From the NCBI GenBank assembly GCA_034687125.1, contig JAQGBZ010000058.1:124001-188000 (forward strand): DNA of 64,000 bases, read 5' to 3'. The notes under the pieces were generated by a model. That model saw nothing but the letters and a program-made list of their open reading frames with translations, was not told where the DNA came from and did not search any database. This DNA is from Neelides folsomi. Taxonomy: Eukaryota; Arthropoda; Collembola; Neelipleona; Neelidae. The position numbers and the translations under genes are program-made. Each line of letters opens with the position of its first letter. Positions within the stretch are counted from its first letter, which is position 1. Shown here in pieces: positions 5,701-46,417 of the stretch.

Positions 5701-8700
5701 CTCAACAGGTGAGGAAATTTTCCATTTACTCATGGTCTTAAATTTCCATTGTTTTTAATATGCTCACTTTTATTTCCATAGGATCCTCCGATGCCGACGT
5801 TGAGTCCACAACCACCAAATGAGAAGCCGCCTTCGGGAAACCCTGAAGCCACAGCTCCTAAATCTGTCTCATCACTTTCCAACCAGGTAACATATTTTTC
5901 CCATTTTTTAAAATTTTAATGTTTAAATCTCAACTTAAATGTCTTTTTTTTCTCTAGATGTATTCTCCTCTCTTGAGTGGGGATGGTGCTAAGGTTGAGG
6001 AAATGTCCGGAAGTCTCGCGCCACCAGATTCCGAAAATACAGGAGGAAATTTATCAGGGGGAGAAAAGGGTGGTTTGCGACCGCCATCACTGCCTAGTAA
6101 GGATTATGAACCTCTGCTCGTGGAAGAAGGAACATCAAAACTCTCTGATATCATTTATGACAACACTAGTTTTCAAGCATGGTAAGATTCCCGCTCATAC
6201 ATTCCCCATACTAAAAATTGATTTGTCATGATGAGTGCATAGTTCAGCAGAATTGTTCTTGACGAAATACACAAATGTTCTTTCGCTCCTATCTGAGGCT
6301 TCTTATTCTCCTATATATAACTAAATGATATTATATGATGAAAGAAATCTAAATTGTTGACGGAATTTCAGGTTGAACTATCCTGTTAAGAAAATGAAGT
6401 TGATGTATGGAAATGAGAAAACCACAGAGTACAATTGGGGATTTGGAATGAGGAAAGATTGCGGAAACTTTTCAGATTCATCTCCATTTTTTAGGAATGG
6501 ACCAAGACAAAGGGATCCTTATCATTTTGATGATGAGAATCATGGAAATCATAATGGAGATGGGACGAAAAGAAAAGAAAGAGTGAAGGTCCGACATTTT
6601 AATTTAATTTTTCATCTAAATTTTGACAATATTTTAGAAGTTTTTGAATGTGTTAATAAATATCTATACTTTATAATTTAGGAGGAAGACAAGAGTTCTT
6701 ATCCAAACGAGAGTAATGGAAACAAGGGGAATATAATGACAAATCTATTTACAATCGAGGGACTCCAACCTCATATTAGTGACCTGGACCAAATGTTCGA
6801 TAACTCGGATTCATCCGGCGATGAAATCGTAAGAAGAAATTTTTTATCTTCACTTTTAAATAATTTAACTCTTTATTATTTTTGTTAAAGTTTCAAGCAC
6901 CAACCCCGCCTGGATCTAATAAACCGATTGGGAGTGTGGAAGAAATGGGGAATACCATCCTCACTAGCGGAAGTAAAGGGCAGACCAAAGGATTAGGAAG
7001 CCTTCGACCAGAAGAGCTATCAAAGATGTTTCCAACTCCACCTTCTCATGAACATCCAATTGCTTCACCCTGTGGTCAACCTGAGACACCATCAATGGAA
7101 ACAGTATCGGACTCTTCATGTATGCGAAGACCTCCCGATCATTACCCAGGGCTTGGTAGTCCACCTGATGAGCCAATTGACGTAATTTCTATTTATTCAA
7201 TTGATTAGTATTTTCTTTAAATTCTTCTTCACATGATGTTTGCATAGTTCATCTGATTGATGATGACTCTTTTTATTCCCTGATATTATTTTCAAATTTC
7301 TTAATTGACATATGGAGGAGATGAAAAGATTAAAAAATTAAATGTTGGTTATTTTTCTAATAGGATTGGACGTTTGTGTACAAATCACCTCCAAAGAGTA
7401 AAGTTTTAGGTTCTTCGAAATACGCGTCTTTGCCTATTCTTCCAAGCCAACACCATGGTCAATTGGTCTTCCCATCACCTAGCGTGTACAAGCCAAGTTG
7501 GCAATGTCCACCAACTCCTCCGCCTGTAGTTCAACCACCACCAGCCCCGACGCTTCCTCCTCCACCCTATCCGCCTATTCATCATCCAAATATGGGGAAT
7601 CAAATGCAGCTTAGACCGGGACTCTCGCCCATCTCTCCTGTCCCTAATGCGATTCGAGGTGAGTTATGGTTTACAATATTTCAATGGAAATAAGATTATA
7701 TGAATCTTCAAGGATTATATTTTGAAGAATGTTTTAGGGGATTTTGCCTAAATGCTTTTGTTTTCATTTAGGACCGTCTGGATTTGATCTTGGGAGTCCT
7801 CCGAATGGGAATGTGTACCTGAAACAGGGACTACCAATGGTTTCTCATGGCCTGTTTAGTGTGAGAGGGCAAGAGGCACATGCCCTTGTGGTCAACCTCT
7901 CACTCTCCGACTCTGTCATCAATTTATTCCGGGATCATAATTTCGACAGTTGCACGATGTGTGTCTGCAATGCTGGGTCAAAGGTTGTTGGGAACATTCG
8001 CGGGTCAGAAGTTGGAGTTTACATAACTGATTCATCTCCCGAGGAAGATTTCATTAGGTGTAATTGCGGGTTTAGCGCCAGTGTGAATAGAAGGTAAATG
8101 AACATTAGATTTTTATATTCAAATAATTCCCAATTATTCAATTAATTCCTTATTAATTATTAACTATATTAATTTATATTAACTATTTAACTATATTAAA
8201 TGCTAAATTGAATTGTATTTTGATTAGACTCGCTCATCGAGCTGGACTCTTTTATGAGGATGAGTTTGAAGTAACAACTGGAGCGTTGGCTGCTCTCCTG
8301 CTTCCACAAGATGAATGGTACGAGAAGAAGAAACCTTCTTTTCTGCTTCTCGACCCAAAGTATCCTAACCCTGCGGCAATTGCGGCTGACAAAGAAGCCA
8401 TGGCTGCTGCAGCGATCCTAGACAACGTACCACAGAGTCTCATTGAGATGCTGAGAGATCAATGTCTCCTCCTTGGTGCTATCGTTGCCTCAAGATTCAC
8501 CGGCGATGTTTTCCATCATAGGTACTTTTTAGTTTAAATGTTAAGTTTCATATCTCGAGACTTGATTGATTTTTAATCCAAATTATGAAAAACGTATTCT
8601 TTGAATCTGTTGTAAATATTTATTTATTATTATTGTATGTGTATGTAAATTATTAAGTGGATCTTATTTCTTTAGCCATTTTTAATTATTCAATGTGAGA

Positions 8701-11700
8701 GTCATTTTCGAATTATTTTTAGATGGACGGAACGAACGTACAATTTCCTTGATTACTTTGACGGAAACCGGGCAGCTCAAACTGCACTTGAGCACGGAAG
8801 AACAGTAATGCTTGAAGCCCGAAATCGCATCGGAGACTATCCGCGGATTCACGAAGACGTCCCTCAGTTAAAGGGGAATTTTATGCATAAATGGCCCTAT
8901 TTGTGTGCTCGAGGGCCAAAGTCAAGCCAGGTGAGAGAATTGAGCAATAGATTGTGAATGAATTTACCAACGAGTGAATTGAATTTAACTAAAGAGAAAT
9001 ATTTTATTATTTTATAGGTGATGCAAGTGATGCGTCTTTTGCTTCCTCTCCTTCAAGACGCTGTTCATGCAAAGTCCTGGGAATCGTTACAACAAGCTCG
9101 GAATACTGTTGCTGGGCCGCTCACTTGGCGTCAATTCCATCGCCTCGCTGGAAGAGGTAATTTATTCCCTTAATTTATATAAAATATTTTAATTTTTATG
9201 GTTATGATGAGTGCATAGTTCAGCAGAATTGTCCTTGACGAAATACACAAATGTTCTTTCGCTCCTATCTGATGTTTTTAATAATTAATTATTATTATTA
9301 TGTGAATTATTCGATTGAATATAATTTAAAATACTAAATTTACTTTTAGGGACGGAAGATCGATGTGAACCTCAGCCAATCCCTTCTATTCTTGTTGGAT
9401 CTGAAAAAGATTGGGTTTCTCTATCTCCGCTGGCGATCAAATTTTGGGAAAAACTTCTTCTTGAACCTTATTCATATCCGAGAGACGTTGCTTACATTGT
9501 TGTCGCCCCTGATAATGATTTCATTTTGCAAAAAGTTCGAACTTTCTTTCGAGAACTGTCAACAATGTATGAGGTAAGGGTTTCATGAGGATTTAAAAAA
9601 ACAGTATTGAACTTACGAGTATGACTTTATTTGTTCATGTTTTGATGAAAAATGTTTTTTTATTTTGAAGGTGTGCCAGTTGGGAAGGCATTGTGCTATT
9701 TCAAAAATCCTTCGTGATGGAATATTAAGAGTAGGAAAAACAGCAGCGTCTCGTATTGGTTCTGAACCTGTTGACGAATGGTTCACCCTTCTCCCTGACA
9801 TTCCAACTTCATCGACCCTCAAGCTTTACGCCCAAGTGTGCCGCCATTACCTTGCACCCCAACTTGCTGCAATGTCTCTTGACCAATCAATTCTTGAATC
9901 AGCGAGTGGAAATCCTCGCCCAGAGCGTCGAGCTCCAAGTCCAAAGATGCCTCCACCAACGACAGACTCAATTTCAGGAGCACCTCAAAGACCTCCAACA
10001 CCAAAGAGTGAATACGACGGTGCAGGACAAGAACCTCTCGAGGATGACGAAAGAGACCCACCAGCCCTTGTTATTTATTTAGTTGAACCTTTTGGATTTG
10101 GATCGGATAGTAAAGATCTTCATAGAATGGCCAATTTGGGTCTCCTGCGTTGCTTCTCCTCAATGTCACTTCCTGAAAATGTGAAGAATAACATCACAGT
10201 CCAAGTATGTTTTTTTTATCATTCAAATGTTTATTAGTTTATTTATTTTGGGATTGTTTAATTTTACAATCATCTTTTTTGCGCAGGTGGTCCCTCTCGA
10301 GGATATAATGAATCTCGGAAACTGCGCGTTAGAGAGTCGATTTAAAAATGATCAATTGCGTGCATTATCACTTAACGTCTACTCTCAATGTCGAAGACTT
10401 CTCATACATCAAAATAACGTAAAGTCGCTGACAGGTTTCGGCCCTGCAGCAGCTTCTGAAATGTTTCTCAAAAACAAAGAGGTAAATTTTCATTTCCTTT
10501 TTTTTATTATTCAGCTCAATGACTTGTATCAGCCAATATTAAATCTATTTTTGTCGTTTGCAGAGGAAGACAGGGTACAAATTGTATGGTCCTCCATTTG
10601 TTCTGGCTCCAACAAAAGATAAAGTGTCAGAAGGGTCCGAATGGCTTGGAGGAATTCAAGGTCATACCATCGGAGGAATGGTGAGCAGTGGAACTTGTCA
10701 AGCTGGTGGATCTCCTCCCTCTGCCTCCTCTGTTCTCTACGTATCCTATTGCATATCCGAGGATCATCGATGGCTCCTTGCGGCAGCAACGGACGATCGG
10801 GGGGAACTCCTTGAAACCACTTGCATCAACATTTATATCCCAAATAGATCAAAGAGGAGAAAAGCATCAGCTAGGAAACACGGCCTTACCAAACTTATGG
10901 ACTTCATTCTTGGCATCATGTCTTGTGGGGTTTCTCCATGGCGTTTGGTCGTTGGCCGAGTGGGTCGAGTTGGCCATGGAGAATTAGAAAGTTGGAGTTC
11001 TCTTTTGAGTAGAAAATCTCTGCTGCGGGCGAGCAATCAGTTAAAGGATGCTTGTCGACAGTGTTCGCTTCAATATCCTGCAGATACTCCTTGTGTGCTT
11101 TCAGCCTGCCTCGTCTCGTTAGAACCCGACAGTTGCCTTCGGCTCCTCCCCGACCATTTTACCCCAGACGAGAGATTCGGGACGGGAGGACCAACAATGA
11201 ATCTTTCAACTCCTCAAGATATTTCTTGTACTCACATCCTTGTCTTTCCAACTTCGGCTACCACACAGGTATTTTTTTAACTTTTAAGACACATTATTTA
11301 ATTATTAAATTGAATGAAACTTTTATGAAATGAAATTCAAATAAATTTTAATTTCTTTAGTCTTCACAACATGCCTTTCAAGAACAGCATATCAATGGCC
11401 CTGAACCCGGCGACGACGATCTTCTCTTCATTAACATCAATGAAGATATGGGAGATATGGGCGAAGGAATGCCGGTACGTTTACCGTTACTTTTATTACT
11501 TTTGTTGTGGAATTAGAATGCAAATTCTATTGTTTAACACTTTTGAAAAATTGATGGAATCCTTCCCATTATAGGAGTTGCATCTTGGAGATATTTTCAA
11601 TTGGGGTGACCAACCAGGAGCCACCAGCCCTTCAGGAAGTCCTAGAAGAGATTCTACATCACAACCTGGTAGTCCTGGAATTGGAATTTCTGGCCGACAA

Positions 11701-40500: not shown

Positions 40501-43500
40501 AGTCACTGAACAATCGACCCCTCGTTCCTCCACGGCCGGAGACGACCCAATTACTTACCCAACAGCAAGAACAGGATTTGGAACAGATGAAGATGTTTGT
40601 TCAACTTCGGCAAGACCTCGAGAGAGTTAGAAATCTTTGTTACATGGTGAGCAGAAGAGAAAAACTCTCAAGGACTTTCTTCCGTCTCAGAGAACAAACG
40701 TTTCAAAAACAAGTAATGGCAAATGTTCATTTATCCCATCAATATAAGAATAACTAAAGTAGGAGAATATTGAAAATTTTTCGATTGCCTTCACATGTTT
40801 TTTATCATTAAGGTGGCCATCTTGACGGAGAAGTCCTTTGATTTGGATTCGCTGAGCACAGCAGAGCGGGGTGCGATCCTTGACGCGAACCATGGCCCAT
40901 CTATCTATGACCAATTTTATTCTCAACCTGGAAATGTAAGCAGTCAAAAGGACTACGAGACACTCATAACTCTCATCGGGGGAAGTCTTCCGACTGGTCC
41001 GAAAAAGAAGGGTAAGAAAAATCATTTGGGAAAACTCAGATTTTGTAAAGTTGCATATAAAATTTACAGATAGATTTAAAATATAGAAATATTTCCATTT
41101 CTCGTAATGAATACCTCCAATAATATATTAAATAGGTATATTGTAATGATCTATGTAAAACTGTTGACGCTTTTGTCAACAGGTTAACAGTACCATAATA
41201 TCCTCGAAAAGTTTTTAAATACAATATTATTCTTCAGGTTCGAAAAAGGACATGAACCCGTACAAAAAGAAATTTGTCAACGGGACAAGAAGGAGAAACA
41301 GTCTTGTTGGTGATTCCTCTCTCAGCGAAAGTGAAGTTTCTGCCGAGGAGACGAAGGGACCTAGACCACGGAAACCCTTGTCTTATCTCTTTGATACGGA
41401 CTCGAGCGAAGGTGGAAGGAAAAAGAACAAAGTTGTGCCAGGTTCCTCTTCCGACTCAGATCTCGATCTGCTGCCCATGGTAGGAAACAAAAGCAAGCCC
41501 GGAGCGTCAGCTATTTACTCCGACACGGACACGGAGAGCAAGAAAAAGGTGGTCGTGAAGGAGAAGAAGAAACCGATGCCGAAGAAGGACATAGGGAAGA
41601 AAGAGCCGGTGGGTAAAGGGCGTGGAGGCAGAAAGAAGAAAGACTTCAACCCAGAATTCCTCGTTCCTCAAAGGGAGGCGGCCAAGAAGGCCACGGAGAG
41701 CATTCGGTCAGTGAAGGGTCGGAAGGAGGGTGAATCGACTGTCAAAGACGCGTCTCCTCAAAAGGTCGAAGAGATCATCAAGAAGGACGTGAAGAAAAGT
41801 TCACCGGAGAGGAAACCACCCAATGTGAACATGGTTCGGAAGCGTGGGGAGGATGATGAAGGAAATCCCAAGAACGTTTCTTATGTTCCTCAACGTCAAG
41901 CGGCCAAAAAGGCAGCTGAGCACATTCGCAGCGGGTTGTCAAACATCGTCGCAGCCCGGCTGATCATCGAGGACGAAATGGAGGCCGCGAGGAAGAAATC
42001 GAAAGGAGGAGACAAATCGCCGAAAGCGCGACCGAAAACTCCTCCGCATGACATTTTCGATGAATTGGTGGCCAAAAAGGCGGAGAACCTTGCATCTGTG
42101 GCTTCACCCAACAAACCGAAGGTCAAGGCGGCTCCAAAAGGTACTGGTTGGGTAAAAGAAGTTCCTGCTCTTGATTGCCTTGCTTGTTTCTCAGGAGGAG
42201 AATGGCGCAAAGGCCCCGACTCGCCCTTTCTTGACAAGGGGTCGCAGTCGCGAAGGAGCCGGGAACGGAGTAGCAGCTCGAGCAGCAGTAGCAGTGGGAG
42301 CAGCAGCAGCGGTTCCTCCTCCTCGAGCCGTTCCTCCTCGTCGTCCTCCTCCTCTGCGTCCCCGGAGCCCATCGTGTCCCGGAAGAGCCCGCCGCCCCTT
42401 GACCACCTCTCCTCGGGCCCAGGTAGGAAGCTTAAAACTTCTGAGCGGTGCCCGAACGGCGGACTTCGGGCCACGGCTTCTCCGAGAGCAAAATCTCCCC
42501 CCAAGGGTCGTAGACCCGCAAAGCCTCGACCACGGAGAGGTAATTTATTCCATTTGGTTAAAAGTCTTTTTATGTAAATTTTATGTAATAAATTAATATA
42601 CTATTTGAATTAATGTAGTCAGATTTAATTAATAATTAATGATTAAATAATTAAAGGTTCAGCTGCAAGCGCACAACCGTCTTCTGCGGAGCGTTCCCCG
42701 ACTCGTAAGGTCCGAAACGTCCCTTCTCCAGACCGTCGTGGAAACGCGAAGGATGGAACCCCTAAGGGGAAGCCCCAGGAAGCGAAAAGCCCACGAAGAA
42801 ATCGAAAACCAAAAGTCGAGGAAGCTGAGGCGCGAAGGAAAGAATCGGCAGCTGCGGCCAAGGCGCTAATCAAAGCTGAACTTCATCTCTCGTCCGATTC
42901 AGAACCGGAACGAAAGTCCCCGGCTCGAATTCGTTCCCGAAACGCTTCCCTTCGACCTTCTGACATTCGTAACAAACCCATGCCGAAGACGAAAAAGAAA
43001 GAACTGGGAATCCTCTCCGACTCGGAATCAGCGGAAGAAAAGGAGAATTCTCTCATTCCCCAGGCCGAGCCAATGAAGAAGACTCCACTTGTTCCTTTAA
43101 CTCCAGCAATTGAGAACAAAGATTCAGAGCCGGAAATGAAACGGCCAAGACTTGAACCACTCCCAGAATTTCCTGAGCCCCACACGTCTTCTGACACACT
43201 TGTTATTACTTCTCCTCCAATGGTTTCTGATCCATTGCCATGTTCAACGGCAGTCACAACACCGACTCCGGCCTCTTCGCCAATCAAGACCACCTGTCCA
43301 ATTCCAAATGTTCCGTCGGTAACGGTGAGTCTGGGCGTATCAACAAGTACCAGCAACACGCTCACGATCTCATCCGGAGTTGGGGAAACGTGCAAGAAGG
43401 TGATTTCTCCACGGCCTAGCATTTCTTCTGTTCCTCTAGTACTCCCGATTCCACTCATCAGTCCTATTGGATTGCTAAGTGCTGGCAGGTCCCTCTTCTC

Positions 43501-46417
43501 ACCACGATCTTCTAAAGAAGGGGACATGCTCGAGTTTGGGGACCAAGACCTCTATGACCTCGCACGTTGTGTAAGCGAAGAGGCCTTGCACGAAGAAGAA
43601 GCTTCCAATTCCCTCTCCTTCTCCTTCTCAAAAGAATTCCTCTCACGGGAAGACAACAAAGAGGACTCGGCAAGAGCCACGCTGAACCTGGTGGAGAAAC
43701 TGAGGCTCCAACATGCAAGGAAGTCAGGGACGATCCATCGAACCTCCACTGAGAACCCAGAAGAGGAAGAAAAGGAAGAATCTCCACCAAAGGAAAAAGA
43801 AGAACCGCCATCATGGGGAGGAAAGAAGGGAGAGGAAGAAGTGGCGGTGGTGAGGACAATGATGAGCCCGCCGCTCCTCACCTTGCCTGGTTTACCATAC
43901 GGAGCTGGATCCTTACGACCCATGTTCCATCCTTCCATGGCTCCACCACTTCCTAACATGGTCATCCCGCCCTACTTCCCCATACCGAAAGGATCCCCGA
44001 GCCTGGTGGGACCCCTCAAGACTTCACCTCTTCTTTCTCCGCCCTTTCCTCATTTCCGTGCCGGTGGGAATCTCAGGAGCCCGAGTTCAAGTCCGGGCCA
44101 GAGGGAAGTAGGGGAAAAGAACGTCAACATGGCCCCGCTGTCCAAACCACCGCTCACATCCCCCTCGCTCATTCTTGCCCCGAGTAATGTGAAGACAATG
44201 ACGCCCCCGCCGCAGTCCACCGTTGCTCAGATCATTGAGAGCGTCGTGAACAATCACTCAGGTGGGAAGAGTACAAATAGCGGGAAAGGACATTCCACCC
44301 CAGGAAAATCTCCACAGACAAGGGCTGGGGAAGTGTCAGACTTCTCTGCCATCTTGTCCAACAAGAACACGGAGAATATCATTGTTCCCAAAGGCAAGGC
44401 ACCGGCTCCCCCGCCGCCCCCCATTGTCACTTCACTCAGTCCGAAAGGGTCTGGACGGGGGAGGAGACCGACGACTCCGCGGGTGAAGAGCGAACGAATT
44501 CCGGAAGACGCCTCTCCACGTGGTAAAGGGCGAGGAGAGAAGAAAACGTCTACATCGCCAGGGAGGGGGAAAACAACACCAAGACGCGGAGGAGGTCGAG
44601 GGAAAGGGAAGGGCAAAGCGATCATTGGAGTTAGGAAGGATCTGGCTGGAACGGTCTACGACATTGACTTTGATGAATTTGAAGAGAACTCAGAAGAAAA
44701 GTTTGATCTCCGGATGCTGAGAGAGAGGAGAAAGTCGGCTGACATCTTTGGTGAAGGGAGAAGGGCCGAGGCGGCAATTTCAAGCCCGCCGATCCTCCCC
44801 AAATGTTCTCCTCTAAACATCGAGGACGGAAAAGCTCCACTCTTACTCCCAGTCGACATGCGAACTCATGGATGGGAAGATGTAGAGACGGCTCCGTTGG
44901 AACCCACATTATCCGAAATCCCCCAGCTTCTTCCCGCCACCCAAAGTAACCATGTGATAAATTCCCAGCGAAATACTCACTTCCCAGTGATGATGCCTGG
45001 TGGGGAGGGGAGGGGGGAGGAACTTCGCCCCTTTGACCCCGACTCGAGAAATCAGCTAAAGTTCAAAATCAAAGGACCCTTCCTGGATGCTAATTATGGG
45101 CTCAGCTCTTCTACGAGCTCATCCTTCCCTCCTCAACCCGACCCGCCTATCTTCAACACGGCCCCGAGCAACTTGAGACGAATGCGAAAGAAAGAACTCC
45201 TTCGTCAGTATTGTGCCCAAGACATGAACATGGATTCTTCTAACAGCTACAGCTTTGAGGTTCAAAATCCCTCTCACCCTCCTAATAGGTCCGTGATCAC
45301 CATACCAAAGGCCGTGGCGTCGATGGCCATCATCCCGACTAAAGACGACTATCGGATGGATGGGACACCGACGAGTGAGGCGGCCGAAGAAAGCCCCAAC
45401 CCTCAACCGCCAACGATTGAGAAAAAGCGGAGGAATCGCGGGGTGTCAAGAGAAATCGCAGCTTTAGGAATTCAATCGGAAGGACCGCGGGAGAGGAGAA
45501 GAGAAAGGACAATGCCAACTCTCACGCCCGAAACTACAAATGGGAGGAAAAGAGGTCGAGCTGGGCCGAACAACAAACCAATTGCTGGACGGTCAACTTT
45601 CATTCCACCAACACTTGTGGAAGGAGATGAGAATCCAAGTGTTAGCTCCATTCCTTCATCGGCAACTCATCCAACTCCAAAGCTGAAGATCAAATTTGCC
45701 GACCTGTCTGGAACCATCAATAATAACAACAACAGCAACAACAACAACAACAACAATAGCAACAATCATATGAATTTCGGTGGTACAAGCAGCAACAGTG
45801 GGGCAAATCATTTAAGTGACTCTGACAAAGAAAGTCCGAATAAAAAGGCCAAAGGTCGCCCTCCCAAGAAACGCGGCCTCACCGACATTCCTCCTCCTTG
45901 CCCGCCCACCATGGAGGAGCTCAAGCGACAAAGCATGAAATTTAGAGAAAAGATCATGGCTAACTTTGTAGAGCAGGAAAAGAGGGATATTTTGGAACGG
46001 AGTGGGACGAGGAAGAAAAGGAAGAATAAGAAAGGAGTCGACTCAGAGACGGATGATTCCAACAGGAGCAAATCCCCTGAAGTAAAGGTCATCACCGATT
46101 CGACCTCAGGGCCCAAGCTGATCCTCAGATTCAATAAGAAGCCCGACGATCCTTCGGATGCCCTCGGTGACCTCAATGGCCCAGACCACGATTCAGGGTT
46201 TACAGGAAGCAGCGAAGGGAGCTCTGTGGGTTCAAATCCCATCGATCCGCCGCTGGAAGTCCCAGAAGTGAAGAAAGAAGAGGAAGAGTTTGACGAGTCC
46301 AAATTGATGCCCATCCGACTCAAACTCTCCCGATGCTATGAAGGGTACTCACTCCAAAAGAAAGAGGCAGAGAGAGAAGGAGAAGCTCCAAAGCCACCAG
46401 ACTGCGAAGTCAGGTGA
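37563..46417 (+). CDS. rno: PHD finger protein rhinoceros-like (JADE family), complete, 14 exons
   Basis: Nuclear chromatin reader; in Drosophila rhinoceros restrains EGFR signalling and JADE relatives are HBO1 acetyltransferase scaffolds. Exons: 37563-37611, 37722-37894, 38478-38594, 38694-38776, 38899-39211, 39338-39455, 39541-39710, 39802-39975, 40101-40231, 40310-40430, 40503-40712, 40813-41011, 41238-42539, 42657-46417; about 2306 aa. MSQRVKK matches the rhinoceros start. An EPL1-like region ([32 protein letters not shown]) spans about 60-140. PHD1 (ICDVCRSP…[14 protein letters not shown]…WLCRTC) lies at about 237-285 and the extended PHD ([13 protein letters not shown]…[13 protein letters not shown]…[14 protein letters not shown]…[11 protein letters not shown]) at about 287-400. 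The long C-terminus is disordered, with basic [24 protein letters not shown] repeats, a Ser run (42268-42360), Pro-rich segments and an Asn run (45717-45770). A 54-nt in-frame segment in exon 13 may be an intron. Length resembles fly rhinoceros rather than vertebrate JADE (about 500-850 aa). Confidence 0.93.

Follow-up and report, generated by a model that had tools for sequence, protein, structure and literature searches.

A probable intragenic family of U80-type small nucleolar RNAs in the introns of MED13 of the collembolan Neelides folsomi

The window analysed here is a stretch of 64,000 nucleotides (nt) of Neelides folsomi (contig JAQGBZ010000058.1 of assembly GCA_034687125.1, positions 124,001 to 188,000 of the forward strand), and it contains on its plus strand a part of the gene for the Mediator subunit MED13. 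Three introns of this gene hold small nucleolar RNA (snoRNA) sequences of the box C/D kind, two of which belong to the U80 type. The features, in positions of the window, are the following:

5958..10199, plus strand: host gene MED13, the part modelled; 11 exons joined by frame continuity, 963 codons in one open frame
6182..6371, plus strand: MED13 intron with U80 copy 1; 190 nt, phase 2, ends GTAAGA/TTTCAG, placed by frame continuity of the flanking exons
6228..6296, plus strand: U80-type box C/D snoRNA, copy 1, from C box to D box
7182..7363, plus strand: MED13 intron with the third, U77-like member; 182 nt, phase 0, ends GTAATT/TAATAG, placed by frame continuity
7233..7283, plus strand: putative diverged U80 relative, the third member; 51 nt, in an intron between those of copies 1 and 2
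9157..9349, plus strand: MED13 intron with U80 copy 2; 193 nt, phase 1, ends GTAATT/TTTTAG, placed by frame continuity
9204..9272, plus strand: U80-type box C/D snoRNA, copy 2

The joined exons contain the MID_MedPIWI domain (E 1.8e-41 in a Pfam search), and Med13_C is found in the open reading frame downstream at 10543-11280 (E 4.5e-57). The gene at 5958-10199 together with this frame is MED13, and the host named in the original prediction is thus borne out. One modelled 5' splice site, GTCCGA at 6589, is atypical. Three of the ten modelled introns bear a snoRNA, with one RNA per intron; the 5' splice site lies 46, 51 and 47 nt from the C box, and the end of the D box lies 75, 80 and 77 nt from the 3' splice site (copy 1, third member and copy 2, respectively).

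Copies 1 and 2 are members of the U80/snR60 family, as both score above the curated gathering cut-off of the Rfam covariance model RF00309 (49.9 and 47.4 bits against 41). They are identical at 68 of 69 positions, the sole difference being T at 6257 against C at 9233. Indeed, the coordinates and the identity given in the original prediction are exact, and its assignment to U80, to be checked with the Rfam model, holds now that the model has been run. In copy 1, the C box ATGATGA is at 6228, a D'-like CAGA at 6248, a C'-like TGACGA at 6260 and the D box CTGA at 6293, and the guides are GCATAGTTCA at 6237 (D' guide) and TCTTTCGCTCCTAT at 6279 (D guide); these positions are computed, and the assignment and limits of the boxes are our own. 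In both copies the four boxes and the two guides are rightly spaced; the guides are intact, as are C and D, and D' and C' are degenerate. The predicted order C, D', C', D with two guides could therefore be located, although with CAGA as D' and TGACGA as C'. The same order and the same two guides are found in the U80/RF00309 consensus, with A1521 and G1612 as the human target sites (PMC3511168); what differs here is the host, MED13.

The third member reads ATGATGTTTGCATAGTTCAT from 7233. Its C box is ATGATG(T), the D' guide is GCATAGTTCA, and this guide precedes a canonical D' box CTGA at 7253-7256; in the 3' half, a C' box TGATGA (7258-7263) is followed by CTCTTTTTATTCC in the position of the D guide and by the D box CTGA (7280-7283). 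The C/D boxes and an A1521-type D' guide, as judged against a generic metazoan 28S stretch, are thus present, and the G1612-type D guide is absent, with CTCTTTTTATTCC standing in its place. Over its first 20 nt it agrees with copy 1 at 17 positions, and the next best place in the window reaches 14 of 20; some of the comparisons of this member used 7229 as the start, 4 bases off 7233, and the slice taken for the guide is independent of the start. We interpret this element as a diverged U77-like relative that keeps the A1521-type guide, a kinship that its sequence suggests. The original prediction had rightly seen two near-identical U80 genes in MED13 and had missed this relative between them.

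The pairing of the guides was scored against a generic metazoan 28S stretch of 144 nt, which was picked for holding both known sites. The D guide of the U80 copies forms 14 base pairs (bp, one of them G-U) with this stretch, a result equalled by 1 of 500 shuffled guides, and their D' guide forms 10 bp, equalled by 4 of 500. The D' guide of the third member forms 11 bp (one G-U), which none of 500 shuffles equalled; 348 of 500 shuffles of CTCTTTTTATTCC do no worse than CTCTTTTTATTCC itself. The sites of U80 are tabulated as A1521 and G1612 in human (PMC3511168) and as A1469 and G1560 in chicken (PMC2653536).

On these features, we consider it very probable that MED13 is home to a small family of snoRNAs of the U80 (snR60) type, consisting of two near-identical copies and a diverged U77-like member in separate introns. 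Several observations weigh against this. The D' box of the U80 copies is CAGA instead of the canonical CTGA (the Rfam letters at this place are CUGA-like), and the terminal stem is weak, most so in copy 2, judging from mismatches in the covariance-model alignment. The third member reaches 24.2 bits with RF00309 (7224-7288), below the cut-off, with E values of 3.8 in 16 kb, 4.2 genome-wide and 0.052 in 221 bases; it is outscored by a match on contig C52 (L005, 24.8 bits), which was judged by eye to be chance and rejected as a U80 copy, and 8 of the 14 prokaryote genomes used as controls also give matches below the cut-off. With 51 nt this member is also short and possibly decaying. Finally, a search of the assembly with a 144-nt 28S piece, run without a positive control, did not find the 28S of the species itself.

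Considering that the score of the third member alone is uninformative, the case for it rests on a pattern search and on its location, and as it lies below the RF00309 cut-off it is taken as a relative and not as a U80 member. The pattern TGATGN{2,10}GCATAGTTCA has three matches in the 75 Mb genome, all of them in MED13 and on the same strand, and the backward control has none. At gathering score, no Rfam family matched 7233-7283, the U77 family included (RF00591, accession as tabulated in PMC3511168); the Rfam scan of 221 bases around this member omitted one lower-scoring match of the same clan.

When 121 bases around copy 1 were searched as DNA against the whole genome, copy 2 was found (E 1.7e-27) and nothing further. 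The genome-wide RF00309 search, in which 60 of 18,833 first-look candidates were scored, gave seven rows at E<=10, three of which are the MED13 members, and only copies 1 and 2 lie above the cut-off; L007-L009, at 22.6-23 bits and below the cut-off, are known by score only. The D guide has 34 matches at up to two mismatches (19 in the backward control), which leaves 32 once the two U80 copies are set aside. Eight of these 32, including all four with one mismatch, were searched upstream for a C box and for the D' guide; the only one with a C-box-like word (L026) was rejected, with 190 of 1000 inner shuffles as good and no Rfam match at E<=3. Neither the U80 pattern nor the 28S pattern matched in viral contigs, and two bacterial records from the pattern scan of genome contigs, known from that scan only, are presumed chance. 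A SNORD18 search had no match, nor had its control. A search of the assembly for the 5.8S family RF00002, in which 39 of 2293 candidates were scored, gave nothing, and a ribosomal DNA (rDNA) pattern with the yeast-type CTGAAC had no match; since both 5.8S and the conserved 28S piece went unfound, the assembly may lack the rDNA. The cox1 of this genome (COX1 in Pfam) reads in the invertebrate mitochondrial code, and by our reading the frames next to it are probably nad2, cox2 and atp6 in an arthropod-like order, which weakly supports the arthropod origin.

Outside the boxes and guides the U80 copies agree at 23 of 24 positions, as against 49 of 121 in the flanks taken in register and ungapped (20 of 46 upstream, 29 of 75 downstream); the chance figure behind this comparison treats positions as independent and depends on our own box limits. 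The identity ends at the snoRNA ends. The alignment scores of the flanks are reached by 36% of 500 shuffles, upstream as well as downstream, and the flanks are thus unrelated, as had been claimed. In a gapped measure, they agree at 33 of 56 and 49 of 84 positions, and random 70-mers at 51%. At none of the three MED13 snoRNAs is a flanking word longer than 7 nt shared, and none has an A tail, the longest A runs in the 40 nt downstream being 3, 3 and 2.

A second locus of the same genome offers a comparison for both the copying and the placement:

Contig C23, about 63400-68400 (L019, L020, L021), minus strand: multi-snoRNA locus, reached by a search with RF00213; all matches below the Rfam cut-offs

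It contains SNORD31 in three places, SNORD29 in three (one of them in both overlapping loci), SNORD15 in three, snoR38 in one, and SNORD27 (U27-like) once by Rfam and a second time by a seed search. We liken it to a multi-snoRNA host of the SNHG1/dUhg type, with U27-, U31-, U29- and SNORD15-like copies amid splice-site-like sequences. It differs from MED13 in that no RF00309 match was reported there and in that some of its flanks are partly alike. The SNORD31-type cores agree at 67 of 78, 71 of 76 and 68 of 78 positions (86-93%), with 70-nt flanks at 55-74%; the longer SNORD15-like cores agree at 168 of 175, with flanks at 65%. The SNORD29 cores agree at 54-55 of 55 and their likeness continues downstream (61 of 76, 61 of 76 and 65 of 70), so the RNA probably extends beyond the Rfam match. 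The two U27 copies have about 38 upstream bases in common, by eye. Thus the cores exceed the flanks in likeness, and the flanks are diverged yet partly alike, which makes the parallel to MED13 real but inexact. The original prediction had pointed to a recent duplication within the gene or to ongoing gene conversion, and it had missed this similar pattern elsewhere in the genome.

The splice sites of the C23 locus were placed without transcripts, the 5' ones by a consensus score of our own and the 3' ones by choosing acceptor words by eye. In 10 of 12 copies the C box is 39-66 nt from the best-scoring 5' splice site, and in the other two the distance is 107 and 126 nt; from D box to 3' splice site the distance is 67-88 nt in the seven copies measured, and a second CTGA in each U27 copy would give 24-25 nt. 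Because the placement at C23 is similar, though not uniform, that in MED13 is not special in this genome. An exception in placement is a snoR38-like element on contig C82 (L018), with 158 nt from the 5' splice site to C and 108 nt from D to the 3' splice site. This element lies at about 1509-1561 and scores 42.0 bits against a cut-off of 45, and by eye its flanking exons are HEAT-repeat-like, of the PP2A-A type. Most C/D snoRNAs are described as having a conserved position upstream of the acceptor, the best distance from the branch point being about 50 nt (PMC8162545), and the MED13 distances agree with such a position.

From established C/D biology, each snoRNA would be expressed with its host, trimmed from the debranched intron after splicing of the MED13 pre-mRNA and packaged with fibrillarin and the other C/D proteins. 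U80 would then direct 2'-O-methylation at the 28S equivalents of human A1521 (by the D' guide) and G1612 (by the D guide), and the third member would retain the A1521-type guide only. We propose that the copies in MED13 may have been born by duplication inside the gene, and that the two U80 copies may be alike either via homogenisation limited to the snoRNA or via copying of the snoRNA sequence alone.

Other histories would also give two such similar copies. The duplication could be old and gene conversion could have had no part, with strong purifying selection across the whole snoRNA as the only thing that keeps the U80 copies alike. The boxes and guides do fit a family that spans yeast to human (PMC3511168), the flanks are fully diverged, and the SNORD31-type copies at C23 keep much of their cores next to flanks at 55-74%, against 51% at random. 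We nevertheless regard this as somewhat unlikely, in view of the near-complete identity outside boxes and guides and of the strong divergence of a third member in the same gene; the 68 of 69 also exceeds the 86-93% of the SNORD31-type cores, yet the SNORD29 and SNORD15-like cores are equally alike. Retroposition of a mature snoRNA into another MED13 intron would explain why the identity ends where the snoRNA ends. It would be expected to leave marks, and neither an A tail nor a common flanking word is seen; such marks could have decayed, and we hold this route to be unlikely.

The like distances to the splice sites could instead suggest that an entire intron, snoRNA included, was copied to another place in MED13, and the three differing intron phases, which speak against the copying of an exon-intron unit, leave room for such a transposition. 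The flanks, however, are without similarity, and a shared placement rule is enough to give these distances, since 10 of 12 copies at C23 follow it, although three copies in the genome lie further off (107, 126 and 158 nt); we hold transposition of the intron to be quite improbable. Least credible, and in our view hardly to be entertained, is that the U80 copies are functionless relics: the weak terminal stem would fit, but neither copy has lost a guide, a C box or a D box, and among the candidates scored RF00309 gave no further locus above the cut-off that could take over the task.

Such copying inside a host gene is known from other animals, and the MED13 host and the third copy are new details, not a new kind. 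In chicken, two U80 paralogs, GGgCD36a/b, likewise share one host, in introns 4 and 5 of a gas5-like gene; that host is non-coding and its introns are adjacent, whereas MED13 is protein-coding and the introns are non-adjacent (PMC2653536). New chicken snoRNAs are reported to arise mainly by intragenic duplication (PMC2653536). Protein-coding hosts with C/D snoRNAs in their introns are described (PMC8162545), the association of snoRNA and host is unstable across eukaryotes, and snoRNAs are said to be still moving within genomes (PMC3511168). Against these reports (PMC8162545, PMC3511168, PMC2653536), the earlier suggestion overstated how unusual it is for such RNAs to have a protein-coding host or to occur twice in one gene. 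A MED13/snoRNA literature search, covering titles and the beginnings of abstracts of the five papers listed, found no report of MED13 as a snoRNA host.

The third member has the A1521 site in common with vertebrate SNORD77 (U77), which shares it with U80; in human, each of the two is said to serve as a back-up for the other (PMC6856654). Compared by eye with the human U77 primer ATGATGGTTGCATAGTTCAG, the third member has two differences in 20 bases, and its 3' part is unlike the human U77 reverse primer (PMC6856654). Mammalian or vertebrate U77 has itself been suggested to derive from a U80 copy (PMC2653536), and the member in MED13 is likely independent in origin from it. If so, one guide would have been lost in parallel after duplication. 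It is conceivable, though doubtful, that U80 moved into MED13, re-created there the trio of two U80 copies and a U77-like RNA known from vertebrate gas5-type hosts, and had its U80 pair kept alike by gene conversion that stops at the ends of the snoRNA. On that reading, the splicing of MED13 would control how much of two 28S methylations is made, and a Mediator subunit would thereby be linked to the modification of ribosomes.

The intragenic family in MED13 would add a deeply conserved guide snoRNA in several copies outside vertebrate GAS5, with a derivative that keeps part of the guides.

Elsewhere in the window, two long open frames without a Pfam match at E<=0.001 lie on the plus strand, running from stop to stop at 41219-42577 (452 amino acids) and 42647-46417 (1256 amino acids) in a stretch of higher G+C.
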